From contig NZ_BDAM01000003.1 of assembly GCF_001895045.1 (NCBI RefSeq), forward strand, positions 124,001 to 188,000: a stretch of 64,000 nucleotides of DNA, in the 5' to 3' direction. The first letter of the stretch is position 1; the number at the start of each line of letters is the position of its first letter. The translations under genes and the position numbers were made by a program. The notes under the pieces are model-generated. The model was not told where the DNA came from. It searched no databases and saw nothing but the letters and a program-made list of their open reading frames with translations. Of this stretch, positions 46,216 through 53,596 are shown piece by piece. The stretch is from Rhodococcus coprophilus NBRC 100603 (lineage in GTDB: Bacteria; Actinomycetota; Actinomycetes; Mycobacteriales; Mycobacteriaceae).

Positions 46216-47212
46216 TCACAGGCTTTTGTACAAGACGACGGCGGGGGCCGCACACGGGTGTGCGGCTCCGGCCGGCGTTGCGAGCCGACTACAAAGCGTA
46301 CGAGCAGCCTGTAGAGGCTCTTTAAATCCTGTGGTCACATATGGAGATGTACTAACTCCATCAGAGATGGGTCAGACTCAACTCCCATTACGGCGTTCGC
46401 GTGCTGGTGTTCAAATTCTTTGAGACGCTTGTGGATGAGTCCCGCTTGTGGAACGTGTCGGCCATAGGTGTCGGCTGTTTCTTAAACCCTAGTAGCGTCA
46501 TCCCTCGCGAAATGAGAGCGCACCAAGCGCCTCTTCCCAGACCTAGGCGCTCCGTAGGAAGTAGGACAACCTCGCGACTAAACAAGTGGATCCGCCGAAT
46601 CTGCCGGACCGCGCGGGGTGATGCTGGTATCTCCTTTCCAAAAGCAGCGACGACTTCGTCTGCAAAGGCGCCGAGGGTATTGGAACCGAGCACCCCCATA
46701 CCGTCGAAGAGGTTCACCGGCTTTGGTCAATGCCTTGATGACACTCCTCAGTGAAAAGAAGTGAGTGCCTAAATGAGCGCTACGCCACCCGGATCTGGCT
46801 ACCGAAGTCGACGCAAAACATCGTTTCTGGGACGGCGGATTCCAGGTTTAACAGCGATGTAGGCAGGGATCTGGTAGTCGCACGGTCGGGAATGGCAGGT
46901 CCTGCGTCGAGGCCCTACCCATCCACTTGTCTACATTCCGATACCAGGGCCTCGAACGAGCTAGCGAGGCGATTAGCGAGCCACACAACAGGCTGCGTCG
47001 GATGGCTGGACTTAGCACCCATCGCCTGCGGATGCGACCGCGGCTTCAGTTTGGCATCTCACTCGCTTCACCCACGCGCTCGGTGCACTAAAGAACTGGA
47101 TGATCCGCCAACGTCCCGAGCACGAGCAACAAACTCAATTTCGGCTCGCTGAAACGGTCATCGGAAACAATCTAAGTTAGGATGCATCCCAGTCACCGGA
47201 TATTCGAATCAG
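46216..47212. other. 997-base gap, left end of low-GC island
   Basis: Just after ilvD there is a GC-rich hairpin (46247-46254 with 46259-46266, CGGG loop). From about 46300 base composition falls and no convincing gene is seen except a weak minus-strand frame listed separately. Small frames on both strands have no recognisable domain. No integrase, tRNA fragment or insertion sequence was recognised. Confidence 0.6.
46388..46717 (-). CDS. Hypothetical protein or gene remnant, 109 residues
   Basis: The frame from GTG 46717 reads MNLFDGMGVLGSNTLGAFADEVVAAFG and later LFSREVVLLPTERLGLGRGAWC, which looks more protein-like than random antisense reading. It is preceded closely by an in-frame stop and lacks a good ribosome site, and its C-terminal part becomes low-quality. 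I do not recognise a family. It could be a decayed fragment brought in with the island. Confidence 0.3.
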   Translation of the reverse strand: MNLFDGMGVLGSNTLGAFADEVVAAFGKEIPASPRAVRQIRRIHLFSREVVLLPTERLGLGRGAWCALISRGMTLLGFKKQPTPMADTFHKRDSSTSVSKNLNTSTRTP

Positions 47213-49585
47213 TTAAGGAAGTCTACCTGACTCCTGTTCGTTTGCGAGGTCGTCATCTCGAATATCTAGGTAGCACCTAAAGGCCGGGTGCACACGGAAT
47301 CGCACTGGCCGATTCATGCGGGTTGCGAGTCTCTGCGCTGCTTTATACTTCTTCTTAGCTTCGGACTCACCCTCGACGTATACAAAGCTGCTATCGCGCG
47401 TCTCGACTCCAAGGAAACTAGTTCGGATAAGCCAGCTTACCAAAGAGTCAAAATCGGAAGCTGAACCTAGTACATCTTGGAGGTCCGACATTGTGACCGT
47501 CGAGTCGAGTCCCGCGAACTCGAAGAGCAATTCTTCGAGATTGAATCCTTGCGCTTCAGACTCCACAATCAATGCCTCTACCGCGAACCTTGAGTATTGA
47601 AACTCTGCATAGTTGAAATCCTGACGGAGGACGCGATCATGGCGCCTATTAATTGCTGTTGTGAGCGCAGCGTTCCCCAGATAAATAAGATCGCGCGGCC
47701 TAGGTAAGGCCCTCCACAAGAGGTAGTCGCGAGTCGGGAGTCCGTGCACCTCAGCGCAAAACACCCGTTCCCACAGGCCCTCTGCTCCTCGAGCGCTCGC
47801 GGAATCGCGATTCGCCTCATATCGTTCTTCGAGCACTCGAATCAGTAGTTCTTCGTCGCTCCATTGGATCGTCTGAGGATTGATCTTGTCAGGTTCGCGC
47901 GCGTGTGCGGCGATCACATCATAAATATCGGTGCGTATGAACACGGTGAGTGTCACGTGAGCTGGGGGCGATGCTTTGTTTGCTCTCTCGAATTCTGCCT
48001 CCAGCTTGCCCTGAGTTACCAACAGCGACAGGATGAATTGCGAAAGCTCGTCGAATGCTACGCCCTTTTCCCAGGTCTTATCCAGATTGTCAATTAGTAC
48101 GGAGACCCTATCGTAAGCGTGCAGCACCTTCTTAAGCTTAGGAAGAAGGCTGGCCCTCCAAGCGTTCCGGATTCGTGATGTTAGGTCTTGTGACCCAATT
48201 TCATGATCGAGCGCGCCTGCGATAACGTCATCTAGTCGGGATGTAAAGTCAGCTTCAAGATCAATTCCATGCCGCGCCAACTCAGCAGCGAGTTCACTTG
48301 TGCTTGCATCCGCCCCAAGTCCAGCAGGCAACGACTCCGCGTTGGAAAGGGCTGCGATGGCTATCTCTGTCGTTAATAGGTAACTCCAGAGATTCAAAAG
48401 AAAATAATCTCGGTTCTGCCTATTCGTTGCCTGTTCAAGAACCAGCACCAAGCCAGCAAGGTCATATGAGCTGGGCTTAACCGAAACGACGAGATTTCGT
48501 CTATCCTTGCGCAGTTCGGCAACTGATTCCTGCATTGTTGCAGTCTTGCCCGTTCCTTTTCGCCCAGTAAAGACGGAGGCACGACCACTTAAGACCGCCT
48601 CAAATTCGTTCGTATGCACGAAGTAATCGTTCAGTTCTATCTTTTCGGACTCGGCAACGTACTGACCAAAGGTTCGAATCGGAAGTTCTATATCAAGCTT
48701 TAGTCGCCCAAGGCGTTTACGCGATCCCGGAGCCGTTGGCAGTACCTTTAGCCACTCTTCGACGTACTCAGTCAGTTTAACCGTTGACTGGTATACATAA
48801 ACTAGATCTCGATAGTCTAAGGGGGCCTGATATTCCTCCTCTGCCACCATTAGTAATGGTATTTCAAATCCATGGGCTATGCCACCAACGAATGCCAGTC
48901 GCGCATTATATGCTGGCGCTAGTGTCCGAGTAGGCTTCATAAAGTGAAGAATCGCGGCTGAAGAACGGTATATTGATTGAACGTAATAAGCTAATGAACC
49001 CAGCCCAAACTCTTCTTGCGAAGCCAAAAAGTTTAGATGAGTTTTCCGGTCGAGCAGTCGTTCCAATCTCTCTGCGGAATTGAACTTGTGCGGCACGCCG
49101 GGCGCAAAAATCGCGTTCTCTTCCCGTGGACGACCACCCGATAGGAGCCCCTCAATGAATGGATCTTCGACTTCGAGCGTCCTTTTGCAGACTTCCGCTG
49201 CCAGCTTTTGGGAGTTCCCGCTGTAGTCTATCCTCCCCAAGGAATCAACTATTCCTAACGATTGCCACGATTTCAGGGCCTCTTCGTCGGACTCATCGAG
49301 GGCCAGGAATAATTTCTTATTGCGCGCGAGCGCATACCCTGCCTCGAAAAGAACGTTCGGATTGCTTGAGCTAACTTCTGCGACGCACGCGTCACACTCA
49401 TCAATCTTCTTCGTGACAATATCGATTATCACGCGCCCGCTTACCGATAGATCTTCCCAGCCGCAAGCTCTTATGCCTCGCTGCGACGTAGCTGCAACCG
49501 CATCGCGCATAGACTCAGCGCGAAGCGCGGGACTCCCTGCGTAAGCGAAAAACGCGGAGGGTTGCTCGTTACCGTGAAGCGTCAT
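47213..49585 (-). CDS. P-loop NTPase with N-terminal deoxyribosyltransferase/TIR-like domains
   Basis: A 790-residue multidomain protein. Residues about 10-140 form a Rossmann-like domain with CDACVAEVSSSNPNVLFEAGYALARNKKLFLALDES, the pattern of nucleoside 2-deoxyribosyltransferase-like and TIR-like effectors. Residues about 180-280 look like a second such domain (NARLAFVGGIAHGFEIPLLMVAEEEY). The ATPase follows: Walker A GRKGTGKT at 341-348, Walker B VLIDNLDKTW about 496-505 and a sensor-like TVFIRTDIYD. The C-terminal third is helical. The organisation resembles STAND or Sll1717-type NTPases that act as threat sensors coupled to a nucleotide-degrading effector. Function is inferred; no substrate is known. 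It is base-composition atypical and probably acquired. Confidence 0.8.
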   Translation of the reverse strand: MTLHGNEQPSAFFAYAGSPALRAESMRDAVAATSQRGIRACGWEDLSVSGRVIIDIVTKKIDECDACVAEVSSSNPNVLFEAGYALARNKKLFLALDESDEEALKSWQSLGIVDSLGRIDYSGNSQKLAAEVCKRTLEVEDPFIEGLLSGGRPREENAIFAPGVPHKFNSAERLERLLDRKTHLNFLASQEEFGLGSLAYYVQSIYRSSAAILHFMKPTRTLAPAYNARLAFVGGIAHGFEIPLLMVAEEEYQAPLDYRDLVYVYQSTVKLTEYVEEWLKVLPTAPGSRKRLGRLKLDIELPIRTFGQYVAESEKIELNDYFVHTNEFEAVLSGRASVFTGRKGTGKTATMQESVAELRKDRRNLVVSVKPSSYDLAGLVLVLEQATNRQNRDYFLLNLWSYLLTTEIAIAALSNAESLPAGLGADASTSELAAELARHGIDLEADFTSRLDDVIAGALDHEIGSQDLTSRIRNAWRASLLPKLKKVLHAYDRVSVLIDNLDKTWEKGVAFDELSQFILSLLVTQGKLEAEFERANKASPPAHVTLTVFIRTDIYDVIAAHAREPDKINPQTIQWSDEELLIRVLEERYEANRDSASARGAEGLWERVFCAEVHGLPTRDYLLWRALPRPRDLIYLGNAALTTAINRRHDRVLRQDFNYAEFQYSRFAVEALIVESEAQGFNLEELLFEFAGLDSTVTMSDLQDVLGSASDFDSLVSWLIRTSFLGVETRDSSFVYVEGESEAKKKYKAAQRLATRMNRPVRFRVHPAFRCYLDIRDDDLANEQESGRLP

Positions 49586-49774
49586 CCACCGATGATGCCA
49601 TGCTGGCCGCGCAGCGAGAAGGGTTAGCTGGCAACTACATACAAAAGAGCCCAGGCGGGATGAACGAGGTGCCTCGGGAATTGCTCTACCGTCTCAGAAA
49701 GTATCGGTGCAATGAAGAGGACACGCCAAACTGGTCAACCGCCTTTAGGCGGAATCCCTAGCTCTTGTGGGATG

Positions 49775-50689
49775 TCAAAGGCTAGAGCGGGTCGCGAGCC
49801 AAACGACATGTTCACGGCTGATGGCTTCCTCGGCATCATCAACTTCGCGTGCCCAGGATTCTTCCGTATCCGCAAGGCTTAGCTTCGCTTCAGCGCTTGT
49901 CAGGTCGCTGAGCGCCGCTGAGTACGCCCTATAATTGAAGTCGTATTGCTTCGTCTGAGTCCAGGCCAAGACTCCGGTTACCAAAGCTGCTATGGCAGCA
50001 GCAATTTGGGTTAGGTCTAGGCTCAGGGCGGCGGCAAGTGAGATTCCTACACCGGAGAGTTCGAGGATGATAAGGACCAAACGCCACCTCTCAGCTTGCC
50101 GCTTGTTTAACCGTGCCTTGTCTGAGTACCATTTCTTTTGCTGATCGATCCGGGCCTCTAGATAACTCTGACGACGGTGTTCAAAACTGGATCGACGTAG
50201 GACGAGCATCCAATCGGAGATTTCCGGTGCCTGGACTGGGTGCAACTCGAGGTCTAAGAACTTCTCCCGGATCGACTTCATCCGCTTCAGCAACGCTCTC
50301 ATTGCGTCGACTTCTTCTAGCGGAGCCGGGAATGGGTTCCCTCCCACAGCAAACTTCCATATCAGAGTCTTTGCGGATTCAGCAACGGCCCTTCCGTCAT
50401 ACCAGGATTTGTCAGGTCGGTTTTTCCACGTATCGAGTTCGAGCACGAGTGTGAGGACGAAAGCGAGGACACCGAACAGCGCCGGGACATTAATAGGACC
50501 GATCTCTCCCCACTCCACCGTCCAGGAGAAGACTCCCGTAAGGGCAGCACCTCCTAGGAGGAGCAGTCTCGTACGCGTCGTCTGTACGTAACTCCTCTGC
50601 CCTTCGAGCGAAGCCTTGTCTGCCGCGCGAAATAGATACGGGTAGTCATTGTCTGGAACGTCGTGAAGTATTGCCATAGCTGGAATCAT
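49775..50689 (-). CDS. SLATT/DUF4231-like four-helix membrane protein
   Basis: This 304-residue protein has two pairs of transmembrane helices (about 41-58 and 66-85; 204-223 and 226-243). The second pair is preceded by the signature YLEARIDQQKKWYSDKARLNKRQAERWRLVLIILE and followed by YNFRAYSAALSDL-type helices, which resembles the SLATT/DUF4231 fold. SLATT proteins are predicted pore-forming effectors in nucleotide-signalling conflict systems (Burroughs and co-workers). The first pair has a similar Trp-Tyr-Ala helix after it, suggesting a tandem arrangement. No nucleotide cyclase is adjacent. The start could be ATG 50689 or 50677. Confidence 0.7.
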   Translation of the reverse strand: MIPAMAILHDVPDNDYPYLFRAADKASLEGQRSYVQTTRTRLLLLGGAALTGVFSWTVEWGEIGPINVPALFGVLAFVLTLVLELDTWKNRPDKSWYDGRAVAESAKTLIWKFAVGGNPFPAPLEEVDAMRALLKRMKSIREKFLDLELHPVQAPEISDWMLVLRRSSFEHRRQSYLEARIDQQKKWYSDKARLNKRQAERWRLVLIILELSGVGISLAAALSLDLTQIAAAIAALVTGVLAWTQTKQYDFNYRAYSAALSDLTSAEAKLSLADTEESWAREVDDAEEAISREHVVWLATRSSL

Positions 50690-51162
50690 GCCTTGTCAGG
50701 AGATGGTATGCCTCTCGTCCGAGAGCAATCAGTACAGAAATCCACCTCTGTCTATTGATCGGCTCGCTGAGCATCCCGCGCCACGGCATCGAGTCCACTT
50801 GGTCACTGCCTACAGAGCGAGGTGGCTGCTCGGAACACACATGGGGATCCAAGGTCGGCGCACACGTCCAGTTTTAGTCGAGCCTCGAAGCTGTGCGTTG
50901 CGCTGATTGAGTTCGTACCAGCGTAGCGGTTGGCCGTTCGCTATTCCGCATTGATACCGCAGACACGTTGCCTATGGCCGAGCTTCACGCGTTCGTGATC
51001 GATCGATACTGGTACGTCGAGAATTGGCCGCGTTCTAAGTCTGTGCCCTGCAGATGCTGGAGCTCTAAGTCTCAGCACCGACCGCCCAAGGTGGCGCGCA
51101 GTGCGTCGATATCACTAGGAAAGCACCCTCCAGCTGAGGTGACCATCCGGGGAGAGCTTCGT
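50690..51162. other. 473-base gap between SLATT-like and TIR genes
   Basis: No convincing coding frame was found; the plus-strand frame at 50968-51282 overlaps the end of the TIR gene and has no known domain. The region should hold the promoter of the SLATT-like gene, but no clear -35/-10 pair was seen. Confidence 0.5.
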
Positions 51163-52314
51163 CTAATTGATACGACGAGGCGCCACCTCGGCGTTCTCTA
51201 TTTCCTCGATCCTCCGTACCCATTCGTCGAAAAGTCCTTGGCCGTCCATGAAACGTTGAAGTGCCCGCGCGATCTTCCCTAGGGGCTTCCTCAAGTCGCG
51301 GCTCATCGACGCGACGCGCTTAACTTCTTCATTCATTCTCTGGAGAGATGCGATTGCTTGTGCACCGGAATCCCGGAGAGAGCGAATCCCGGTGGCAAAT
51401 GCCGCGAAGTCTCTGTCATCGTTCGTGCTTGACGGGTCCTCGGCAATGCTAAGGAGAATCTTGGAAATCCCGTTGTCCATTTGGAGCGCTTGCTCTGTAT
51501 AAATCGTGCTGGTCTCGACGATTCGATCAGCAATGGGGTTTAACTCGCCGGCCAGCTTCCGAGCCAATGCCAACTTCACCGACGCGCTCGCAGATCGTCC
51601 GACTGTCTGCATTTTTGGTGCGTACCGGTTGAATGGCTCCGATAGGGCTTCGATGTCGGATGACAGGGTCTCGATTGTCTTTGTCCAAGAAGGAAAAAGA
51701 ACTTCGATTTCAGCCATGCTATCGAGGATTCCAGGCGACACATCTGCGAACTCGTCGACGTTCGTGTTTTCGGCGGGCACGGGATCTAAGACTTCCGGCC
51801 GATCAGCGATCATTTCCGCGATCTCTGCAAGTCGGAGGGCTAGTTTGTTGACGGCTGACCGGTATTGTGCACTTTGCTCTTCCTCCAGTCGTAGCGTCGT
51901 CCAGTTTTCGTACTGGGTAGAAGAAATGATCGCCTTCACTTCGTCCTCAGCGTCCTCTTCAAGCCTCGGAACGCCCGAGTACAGGATCGGAAGCAGAAGT
52001 TCCTTGACACCGCGCCTCTCAGCATGCTTCGAAAATTGGATGAGTTCGTGTCTGCACTCGGGTCTCTGAATGTAGCGAGCGGTAACGATCGGAATGAAAA
52101 AGGTGGTGGCGGCAAGCGCATCGTCGATGGTATCTCGCCACCTTGCACCCCAAGAGATGTCATCTCTGTCAACGAACATGTGGATCTCGTTACCCGTGAT
52201 CAGCGAGTATTCCGCCTCGATCAAATTACACAGCCGCAAAATGCGCCCATGTTCTGCTTCGTTGTCGGCGTGTACGTAGCTCCAGAAACCCGCGGGTTGC
52301 TCGCTAGTTGTCAT
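51163..52314 (-). CDS. TIR-domain protein with helical C-terminal region
   Basis: This 383-residue protein has a TIR domain at residues about 8-150: GFWSYVHADNEAEHGRI, EIHMFVDRDDISWGARWRDTIDDALAATTFFIPIVTARYI, then CRHELIQF with Glu90 at the position of the NADase catalytic glutamate. The remainder (about 195-383) is alpha-helical and coiled-coil-like, rich in Ala, Glu, Leu and Arg (IETLSSDIEALSEPFNRYAPK). There is no membrane segment. Bacterial TIR proteins commonly deplete NAD or make signalling nucleotides after phage sensing. The ATG at 52314 was chosen because the TIR motif starts at once; the extra upstream codons are basic low-complexity. It is probably a defence gene, by family. Confidence 0.88.
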   Translation of the reverse strand: MTTSEQPAGFWSYVHADNEAEHGRILRLCNLIEAEYSLITGNEIHMFVDRDDISWGARWRDTIDDALAATTFFIPIVTARYIQRPECRHELIQFSKHAERRGVKELLLPILYSGVPRLEEDAEDEVKAIISSTQYENWTTLRLEEEQSAQYRSAVNKLALRLAEIAEMIADRPEVLDPVPAENTNVDEFADVSPGILDSMAEIEVLFPSWTKTIETLSSDIEALSEPFNRYAPKMQTVGRSASASVKLALARKLAGELNPIADRIVETSTIYTEQALQMDNGISKILLSIAEDPSSTNDDRDFAAFATGIRSLRDSGAQAIASLQRMNEEVKRVASMSRDLRKPLGKIARALQRFMDGQGLFDEWVRRIEEIENAEVAPRRIN

Positions 52315-52840
52315 GCTGAGGCATTTAACCAGACAAACTAATCGTGTGCTACGCACCGCGCGAAGGAAGCGTGCAATCCGCAGGTTGCGCACCAGCAGCC
52401 GCAAGGGCCCCCGACGGCGTCCAGCTCGGGTCCCCAGATGGGCTTCAGAGTACCCATGCGGGAGCATGCCCAGCCGACCCTCACACGGGTTTACGCATGT
52501 TCCTTTCCCATGCTGGCGGGCGCGTCCCGCGGCTGGGCATGACCAGATTCGCTCCCGACGAACTCATCAGCTCATCACCTCGTCCCGGGCCGATCGGTCT
52601 ACTACAAGAGGTCAACCCGTCATGTATTCATGACCCGCAGGTTAATCTAGGCCCATCACGAGCCACGTCCCGAGCGCGACGTGGAGATAGCGTGCACTCG
52701 ATGCCCGTAATCGGCTACATCAATGCAGCGGCTTTCCTGGCAAACGCGCACGCGCCGCCTTTGAGAACCGGTATTCGTCGGAGTTTGGCACGACGCTCGG
52801 CCGTGGGCGTGCCACGCCCCGGCGGATTGCGACCCAATGG
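52315..52840. other. 526-base gap, right end of island
   Basis: No gene is supported. Base composition rises back to the native level across about 52350-52840. There is a short palindrome, GTCATG-tatt-CATGAC (about 52620-52636). Long plus-strand frames here are continuations that overlap the DoxX gene on the opposite strand. Confidence 0.55.
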
Positions 52841-53596
52841 TCAGCGGGCGAACAGCCACAGACAGACGCCCGCAGCGACCCCCAGTAGCAACGCCACGAA
52901 CGATCCGAGGAACGGACGCGTGGCCCATTTGCGCGGACCGTCGGCCGCGATCCGTCCGGGGCCGGTGAGTGTGAGCGCCACTGCCGTTGCCGCGAGCAGC
53001 ACTTCGTATTCGAAACCGGAGCGCTCGGATGCGAAGTACTGCACTCCCGGCTCGAGGTTGTGCTTGTACAGCACGGCGTTGATCATGATCGCCACGACCG
53101 CCGCCGCCGCGAGCGGGGTCAGCAGACCGAGGACGAGCAAGGCGCCCGCTGCGGTCTCACCGACAGCGCCCGCGATCGCGAGGATGCGTGGCTGCTGGTA
53201 TCCGGCCTCGCGAAGAAGCTGCTCGAAACCGTCGAGTCCGGGCCCTCCCCACAACCCGACCAGCTTCTGCAGGCCGTGGGCGATCAACGTCGCACCGACG
53301 ACAAGTCTCAATATCAGCAACCCGAGGTCGAGAGTGCCCCGGCGCGCCTTGGGTGCTCGCTGGTCCACGCCGGTCGCGGGCCCGAAAGAATCCGGGGTGT
53401 GGGCACCGGTCGTGTCCGGCCGGTACATCTGCTCGGTGGGGGCGGCGTGTGCCCCGCCGCCGACCGACGACCCGTCGAAGTCGAGGTCGTCCTCGGTTTC
53501 CAGCCGGGAAGAACGGGTGCGGCGCATCTGGAGCGTCGGCTCGTCGTAAGGACTCGATCCTGTTTCCGGCGATCCGCCGGTTCCTTTGTCGGTCAC
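52841..53596 (-). CDS. DoxX-family membrane protein
   Basis: This 251-residue protein has a disordered, acidic N-terminal half (about 1-105) and a DoxX domain with four membrane helices: LGLLILRLVVGATLIAHGLQKLVGLWGGPGLDGFEQLLREAGY, then GETAAGALLVLGLLTPLAAAAVVAIMINAVL. Mycobacterial DoxX (Rv3005c) forms a membrane-associated oxidoreductase complex with SodA and SseA and protects against oxidative stress; this gene occupies the same position. Start GTG 53596 was taken because it is the last good start before the divergent lipoprotein gene. Confidence 0.88.
   Translation of the reverse strand: MTDKGTGGSPETGSSPYDEPTLQMRRTRSSRLETEDDLDFDGSSVGGGAHAAPTEQMYRPDTTGAHTPDSFGPATGVDQRAPKARRGTLDLGLLILRLVVGATLIAHGLQKLVGLWGGPGLDGFEQLLREAGYQQPRILAIAGAVGETAAGALLVLGLLTPLAAAAVVAIMINAVLYKHNLEPGVQYFASERSGFEYEVLLAATAVALTLTGPGRIAADGPRKWATRPFLGSFVALLLGVAAGVCLWLFAR

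Follow-up and report, generated by a model that had tools for sequence, protein, structure and literature searches.

Do the three neighbouring conflict-type genes found between ilvD and doxX in Rhodococcus coprophilus NBRC 100603 form one immune system, or are they a stack of independent genes? They lie in a 64,000-nucleotide stretch of contig NZ_BDAM01000003.1 (positions 124,001 to 188,000), hereafter the window, and encode a large ATPase with added N-terminal domains (gene 1), a SLATT membrane protein (gene 2) and a TIR protein (gene 3). We read them, tentatively and at slightly less than an even chance, as an acquired mini defence island composed of a probable re-partnered TIR-SLATT pair and an autonomous ATPase of the NDT-STAND kind (NDT, nucleoside 2-deoxyribosyltransferase).

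The insert is a recent foreign acquisition, because its flanking genes, ilvD on the plus strand and a doxX-type gene on the minus strand, lie only about 57 to 106 bp apart in all 16 same-genus genomes examined, compared with 6,631 bp here. The distances run from the coding match of one flanking gene to that of the other, and the genus search covered 17 relatives, of which G223, with ilvD on a broken short contig, was left out. The genome G051, whose ilvD is 99% identical, has a gap of 75 bp. Homology to the nearest relative (L045) stops at position 46274 and restarts at 52841 (blastn), and the terminator hairpin retained on the ilvD side folds at -36.9 kcal/mol (positions 46228-46290, z -3.5), its intact counterpart in L045 being strong at -53.5 kcal/mol. 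In 1-kb windows, guanine-plus-cytosine (GC) content is 0.49-0.56 over 46.5-52.5 kb and 0.63-0.72 in the remaining window, two edge windows excepted, with a mean of 0.663 for the whole window. The first-pass annotation, made from the letters alone, had described three minus-strand open reading frames (ORFs), separated by 189 bp (genes 2 and 1) and 473 bp (genes 3 and 2), in a low-GC island inserted between ilvD and doxX, and each part of that description holds. No tRNA was found within the insert, its small ORFs included no recognisable integrase or transposase and gave no Pfam match better than E 0.025, and no junction repeats were better than chance. The left end of the insert had no match at E 0.01 among 4,040 ORFs of the loci read and no Rfam match at E 0.1.

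The suggestion of the first-pass annotation that all three proteins belong to conflict-type families is likewise borne out by Pfam and NCBIfam, which return TIR_2 for gene 3, SLATT_3 and SLATT_1/DUF4231 for gene 2, and an Sll1717 ATPase with a weak N-terminal NDT match for gene 1. Gene 2 matches both SLATT_3 (E=4.5e-37, 128 bits) and SLATT_1 (E=1.5e-29, 103 bits) above the cut-off of 26.3, is also of the DUF4231 type, and carries hydrophobic segments at residues 61-90 and 201-247 (hydropathy) together with an intact conserved C-terminal block, making it a SLATT protein and a predicted membrane effector. Gene 3, next upstream on the same strand, provides the only TIR_2 match of the genome.

One reason to pair these two genes is the company that SLATT relatives keep in Actinomycetota and on plasmids. 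A TIR gene is present in 17 of 18 SLATT loci (stretches of 5-17 kb, searched with home-made hidden Markov models, HMMs) and, in 14 of these, belongs to the ThsB kind (with L106 giving no more than a fragment); L087 is the single locus in which no TIR was found. These 18 include nine plasmid records, picked for difference from 79 matching records, and exclude L091, L099 and L100 (whose SLATT identity is below about 30%), L115 (found via gene 1), and L004 and L005 (dropped before counting, being on the same contigs as L084 and L086). Since the HMMs were built partly from the TIRs of the same loci, 15 further SLATT loci were read; in 11 of them a TIR lies no more than about 5 kb away, of the ThsB kind in four and TIR_2-type in seven. 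As a background, the same HMMs found a TIR in none of the 16 ilvD-region loci of the genus, and Pfam finds ThsB_TIR or TIR_2 in most of the SLATT-locus partners scanned, the piece in L144 being an exception. One gene row on a rhizobial plasmid (L102) is annotated as TIR, DNA lyase, 7-cyano-7-deazaguanine synthase, TIR, DUF4231 (SLATT) and TIR, and L103 resembles it.

The TIR beside gene 2 is of another type than ThsB. Gene 3 matches TIR_2 at E=3e-9 and the N-terminal FxsC model (FxsC_Nterm) at E=1e-11, and aligns with a profile of six FxsC proteins (hhalign, 98%, E=3e-13); with 44.8 bits against a cut-off of 130 for the N-terminal model and no match to FxsC_Cterm at E up to 1, it falls outside FxsC proper. 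A C-R-x-E motif is invariant in all five aligned rows. Complete FxsC is itself the TIR in six of the 15 further SLATT loci (L146, L150-L153, L155), all of them FxsB-containing clusters (FxsB was scanned in L146 and L151, and the other FxsC loci were judged from sequence starts). The presence of a SLATT_3/1 gene 2.7-3.5 kb from FxsC in these clusters suggests that FxsC may be a signal-maker for a SLATT effector.

How could a SLATT protein come to stand beside such a TIR? On the SLATT tree, gene 2 shares a starred group of four with three proteins, two of them partnered by ThsB and the third, like gene 2, by a TIR_2 protein, the partner label being scattered over the tree as a whole. No ThsB (PF08937) match was found in the genome at E up to 0.001, and a search of the interval between genes 3 and 2 with three ThsB partners (tblastn) gave chance-level matches only, among the matches listed. 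A simple history may be proposed from these sequences, in which gene 2 descends from ThsB-partnered kin, ThsB was lost, and a different TIR is now adjacent. Upon infection, the FxsC-type TIR would cleave NAD+ to an ADP-ribose-type signal, the signal would cause the SLATT protein to open the membrane, and the infected cell would halt before phage release, an abortive logic like that of Thoeris. We hold it a shade less than evenly probable that a TIR-made signal gates the SLATT effector in this way.

Several observations weigh against this pairing. Chief among them, SLATT is absent from all 22 loci of gene 3 relatives, which were read in sets of 6, 2 and 14. The last 14, mostly distant relatives in longer proteins, lowered our confidence in the re-partnered pair from an even chance to just below it. 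The count excludes true FxsC loci, where SLATT does occur nearby; it includes L092, a relative in two frames that was kept out of the alignments, whereas L098 and L163, where the ORF test showed no TIR, and L168, with a blast match to gene 3 only, count for SLATT absence only. Moreover, other genes intervene between FxsC and SLATT in the FxsC clusters, four of the 15 further SLATT loci (L142, L149, L154, L156) have no TIR at all, the first set of 18 shares some of its TIRs with the HMMs that scored it, and the gaps between the three genes do not point to one tight operon.

Gene 3 relatives are themselves uncommon, with matches in 9 of 301 genomes of the family and, by alignment, 13 of 335 of the class, own genome included in both. 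The relative in L094 has a major head protein gene close by, the surroundings in L093 and L096 are similar, and in L129 the relative lies inside a viral contig; in these four the gene-3-type TIR appears as stand-alone cargo in phage-type or viral surroundings.

In a rival reading, the three genes would be independent and stacked together: a prophage-type TIR with SpbK-like logic, an orphan SLATT and a single-gene NDT-STAND ATPase. We regard this as a real possibility, although appreciably short of an even chance. It accords with the gene 3 relatives found among phage genes or in a viral contig, with the absence of SLATT beside gene 3 relatives and most gene 1 relatives, and with the nearest relatives of the three genes, which sit in separate records (an R. 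qingshengii plasmid, 65%; Rhodococcus sp. ARC_M6, 61-62%; G251, 67%). Against it, the SLATT family mostly retains a TIR neighbour, the SLATT of gene 2 is intact, and the genome's sole TIR_2 protein is encoded next to it on the same strand.

Preferring the re-partnered pair, we turn to gene 1, which appears to act on its own. It is a member of the Sll1717-family P-loop ATPases (NF047389, 293.4 bits versus a cut-off of 75), a family name that conveys no function, and adds two N-terminal domains to that ATPase. The first has a DNPH1/NDT-like fold with a conserved Glu; its match to PF05014 (nucleoside 2-deoxyribosyltransferase) is weak, at 20.9 bits below the 28.8 that membership takes, and the same model matches five of the nine A4 members at E up to 0.001, gene 1 included. 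Among the matches listed, the N terminus is nearest to DNPH1 and the ATPase is ORC/sso1545-like. The Glu81 motif, Walker A, Walker B and Arg551 are kept in all 17 gene 1 rows. From this architecture, we consider that gene 1 probably works as a stand-alone mechanism, an oligomerising ATPase activating its own glycosidase. Once activated, the ATPase would assemble and switch on the fused DNPH1/NDT/TIR-like glycosidase, which would cut NAD+ or a nucleotide, so that gene 1 may be a largely self-contained sensor-effector to which a TIR-SLATT partner is only facultative.

The gene 1 architecture occurs in Actinomycetota, in viral contigs, and on plasmids of cyanobacteria, spirochaetes and proteobacteria. 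Matches to gene 1 are rare, occurring in 2 of 301 genomes of the family and, with E up to 1e-30, in 2 of 396 of the phylum, own genome included, the other phylum match covering residues 273-776 only. In the closest relative (L007:7974-10367, NZ_CP054208.1), one frame is annotated as two coding sequences with an in-frame stop between them, a TIR_2 gene lies divergently upstream and a DUF4062 gene downstream. A lone relative in G086 (L061:11846-14251) has a GC content of about 0.53 among neighbours of about 0.7.

The three genes do not travel as a fixed unit, because SLATT is missing both from the 22 gene 3 loci and from 16 of 17 gene 1 loci. Two of the 17 gene 1 loci have a TIR. These 17 comprise G086, 8 of 13 plasmid records (at least 80% coverage, near-copies dropped) and 8 of 17 viral loci; the nine remaining viral loci match the ATPase part only and were excluded, and two of the viral stretches counted end shortly past the gene. 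The exception is L115:3965-9835, a viral contig (IMGVR_UViG_2565956771_000001) in which a gene-1-like ATPase, a TPR-S protein, ThsB, SLATT and a second ThsB stand together. Among the 15 class-level SLATT loci, one (L144:1925-6286, in G795) has a gene 1 relative, 38% identical, which converges on a ThsB-like gene and SLATT; that ThsB-like gene, read as two abutting pieces, is possibly a broken one. On the gene 1 tree, the proteins encoded beside SLATT fail to cluster with one another. It is a fair reading that gene 1 and TIR-SLATT form a recurrent, facultative association. By our estimate, made without a computed test, such recurrent adjacency of genes this rare would hardly arise from random placement, but a tendency of defence genes to cluster in general could produce it. 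The first-pass annotation had left open whether the locus is one composite system or a stack, and the outcome lies in between: the SLATT-TIR tie stands and the fixed trio does not. The independent occurrence in relatives that it named as counting against a joint system is seen for genes 1 and 3, and not for the TIR-SLATT tie.

Two more integrated readings fare less well. Doubtful in our view is a recurrent mix-and-match immune module of NDT/DNPH1-like STAND ATPases and TIR-SLATT pairs, in which TIR and NDT-like glycosidase signals would meet at one SLATT and the TIR could be swapped, ThsB for an FxsC-type. We judge improbable one three-part system, in which the NDT-STAND ATPase would sense infection and make or tune a nucleotide signal, the TIR would add an NAD-derived signal and SLATT would execute. 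In its favour, two unrelated loci, L115 and L144, also place a gene-1-like ATPase next to TIR and SLATT, and together with the window they require three changes on the gene 1 tree. However, SLATT is absent from the stretches of the closest gene 1 relatives (the L007 plasmid and G086) and from the stretch read of L131, a 77% relative of the L115 gene, the TIR types of the window, L115 and L144 are unlike, and the TIR piece of L144 was recognised by the home-made ThsB HMM and not by Pfam or NCBIfam. Decaying cargo with no present role is very unlikely: the insert ends lack a recognised gene, the genome lacks ThsB, and the end branch of gene 2 is the longest of its group of four (0.61), but each of the three genes retains a full-length frame and its conserved motifs.

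The features of the insert are collected in Table 1. The interval between genes 2 and 1 contains a hairpin that lacks a T-run, at 49741-49754 (fold of 49720-49780, z -2.4). The first-pass annotation had taken the two intergenic gaps as an argument for separate promoters; consensus scans for these reached only the level of shuffled sequence.

Table 1. Features of the insert and domains of its three proteins (window positions or residues)
Feature	Position	Strand	Size or character
Foreign insert	46275..52840		Left edge right after ilvD/doxX terminator hairpin; right edge is doxX stop
Terminator hairpin, retained on ilvD side	46235..46278	+	Arms found
Left insert end	46275..47212		938 bp; low GC, no recognised gene
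Gene 1 (P0001)	47213-49585	-	790 aa
Gene 1 domain 1	about residues 8-140		DNPH1/NDT/TIR-like; invariant Glu81
Gene 1 domain 2	about residues 155-285		Alpha/beta; no Glu81 equivalent
Gene 1 domain 3	about residues 300-775		ORC/STAND-like Sll1717 ATPase
Gene 2 (P0002)	49775-50689	-	304 aa
Gap between genes 3 and 2	50690..51162		No ThsB remnant found
Gene 3 (P0003)	51163-52314	-	383 aa, counted from family-fitting ATG; ORF readable further upstream
Gene 3 TIR domain	about residues 9-170		FxsC-type; Glu90 conserved
Gene 3 C-terminal part	about residues 195-375		Long helices; low-confidence model (predicted local distance difference test, pLDDT, 62)
Right insert end	52315-52840		526 bp; low GC, no recognised gene or RNA

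Comparison with described systems places each part among known kinds. TIR-SLATT neighbourhoods are noted in sections of a study in Viruses (2022, PMC9503650), and parts of another in eLife (2020, PMC7159879) place SLATT with TIR in GTPase-centred conflict systems; the same sections predict SLATT to be a membrane effector regulated by ADPr or nucleotide signals. Here too a TIR gene is near a SLATT membrane protein, but the TIR is FxsC-type, the SLATT is of the double SLATT_3 and SLATT_1 form, and the two are accompanied by an NDT-STAND ATPase. Thoeris, as defined in a portion of PMC11204291, combines ThsB with a ThsA of the SIR2-SLOG or TM-macro kind. The locus shares with it the logic of a TIR signal-maker and an effector, and many SLATT relatives have ThsB (PF08937) partners; however, PF08937 has no match in gene 3, nor SIR2, SLOG or macro in any of the three proteins, at E up to 1. 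FxsABC peptide clusters share with the locus the FxsC-type TIR and, in the six loci described, a SLATT_3/1 gene, yet gene 3 has no FxsC C-terminal match, and the best candidate for the FxsB radical SAM maturase in its genome scores 35.5 bits against a cut-off of 370. SpbK, a single-protein TIR antiphage defence according to part of PMC12847820, resembles gene 3 in joining TIR to a further domain, which in that account is N-terminal (residues 1-94) in SpbK and is C-terminal in gene 3. Swarozyc/DUF4062 proteins are TIR-like NADases, and eukaryotic DUF4062 proteins have a STAND-like build, as described in part of PMC13174449. Gene 1 resembles them in its TIR/NDT-related catalytic domain with a conserved Glu, and differs in having no DUF4062 match at E up to 1, in its nearness to DNPH1 and in its ORC/sso1545-like ATPase. 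Against the defence systems listed in PADLOC, the cassette gave partial matches and no convincing full-length one, the best being PDC-S66 (E=1.3e-6, residues 41-112 of gene 3). A search of the open-licence PMC literature found neither this three-gene grouping nor the NDT-Sll1717 architecture described, an absence that is not proof of novelty.

The role of SLATT as a TIR-linked effector is, in the sections of PMC9503650 and PMC7159879 that treat it, a prediction from gene neighbourhoods. Whether a SLATT effector can take a non-ThsB TIR as its new partner is a question for which the locus is a compact natural test case. A further lead is a single-gene candidate, scattered and unnamed, that joins a DNPH1/NDT-like domain to a second alpha/beta domain and an Sll1717 ATPase and whose build may be likened to that of NLR-type immune receptors.

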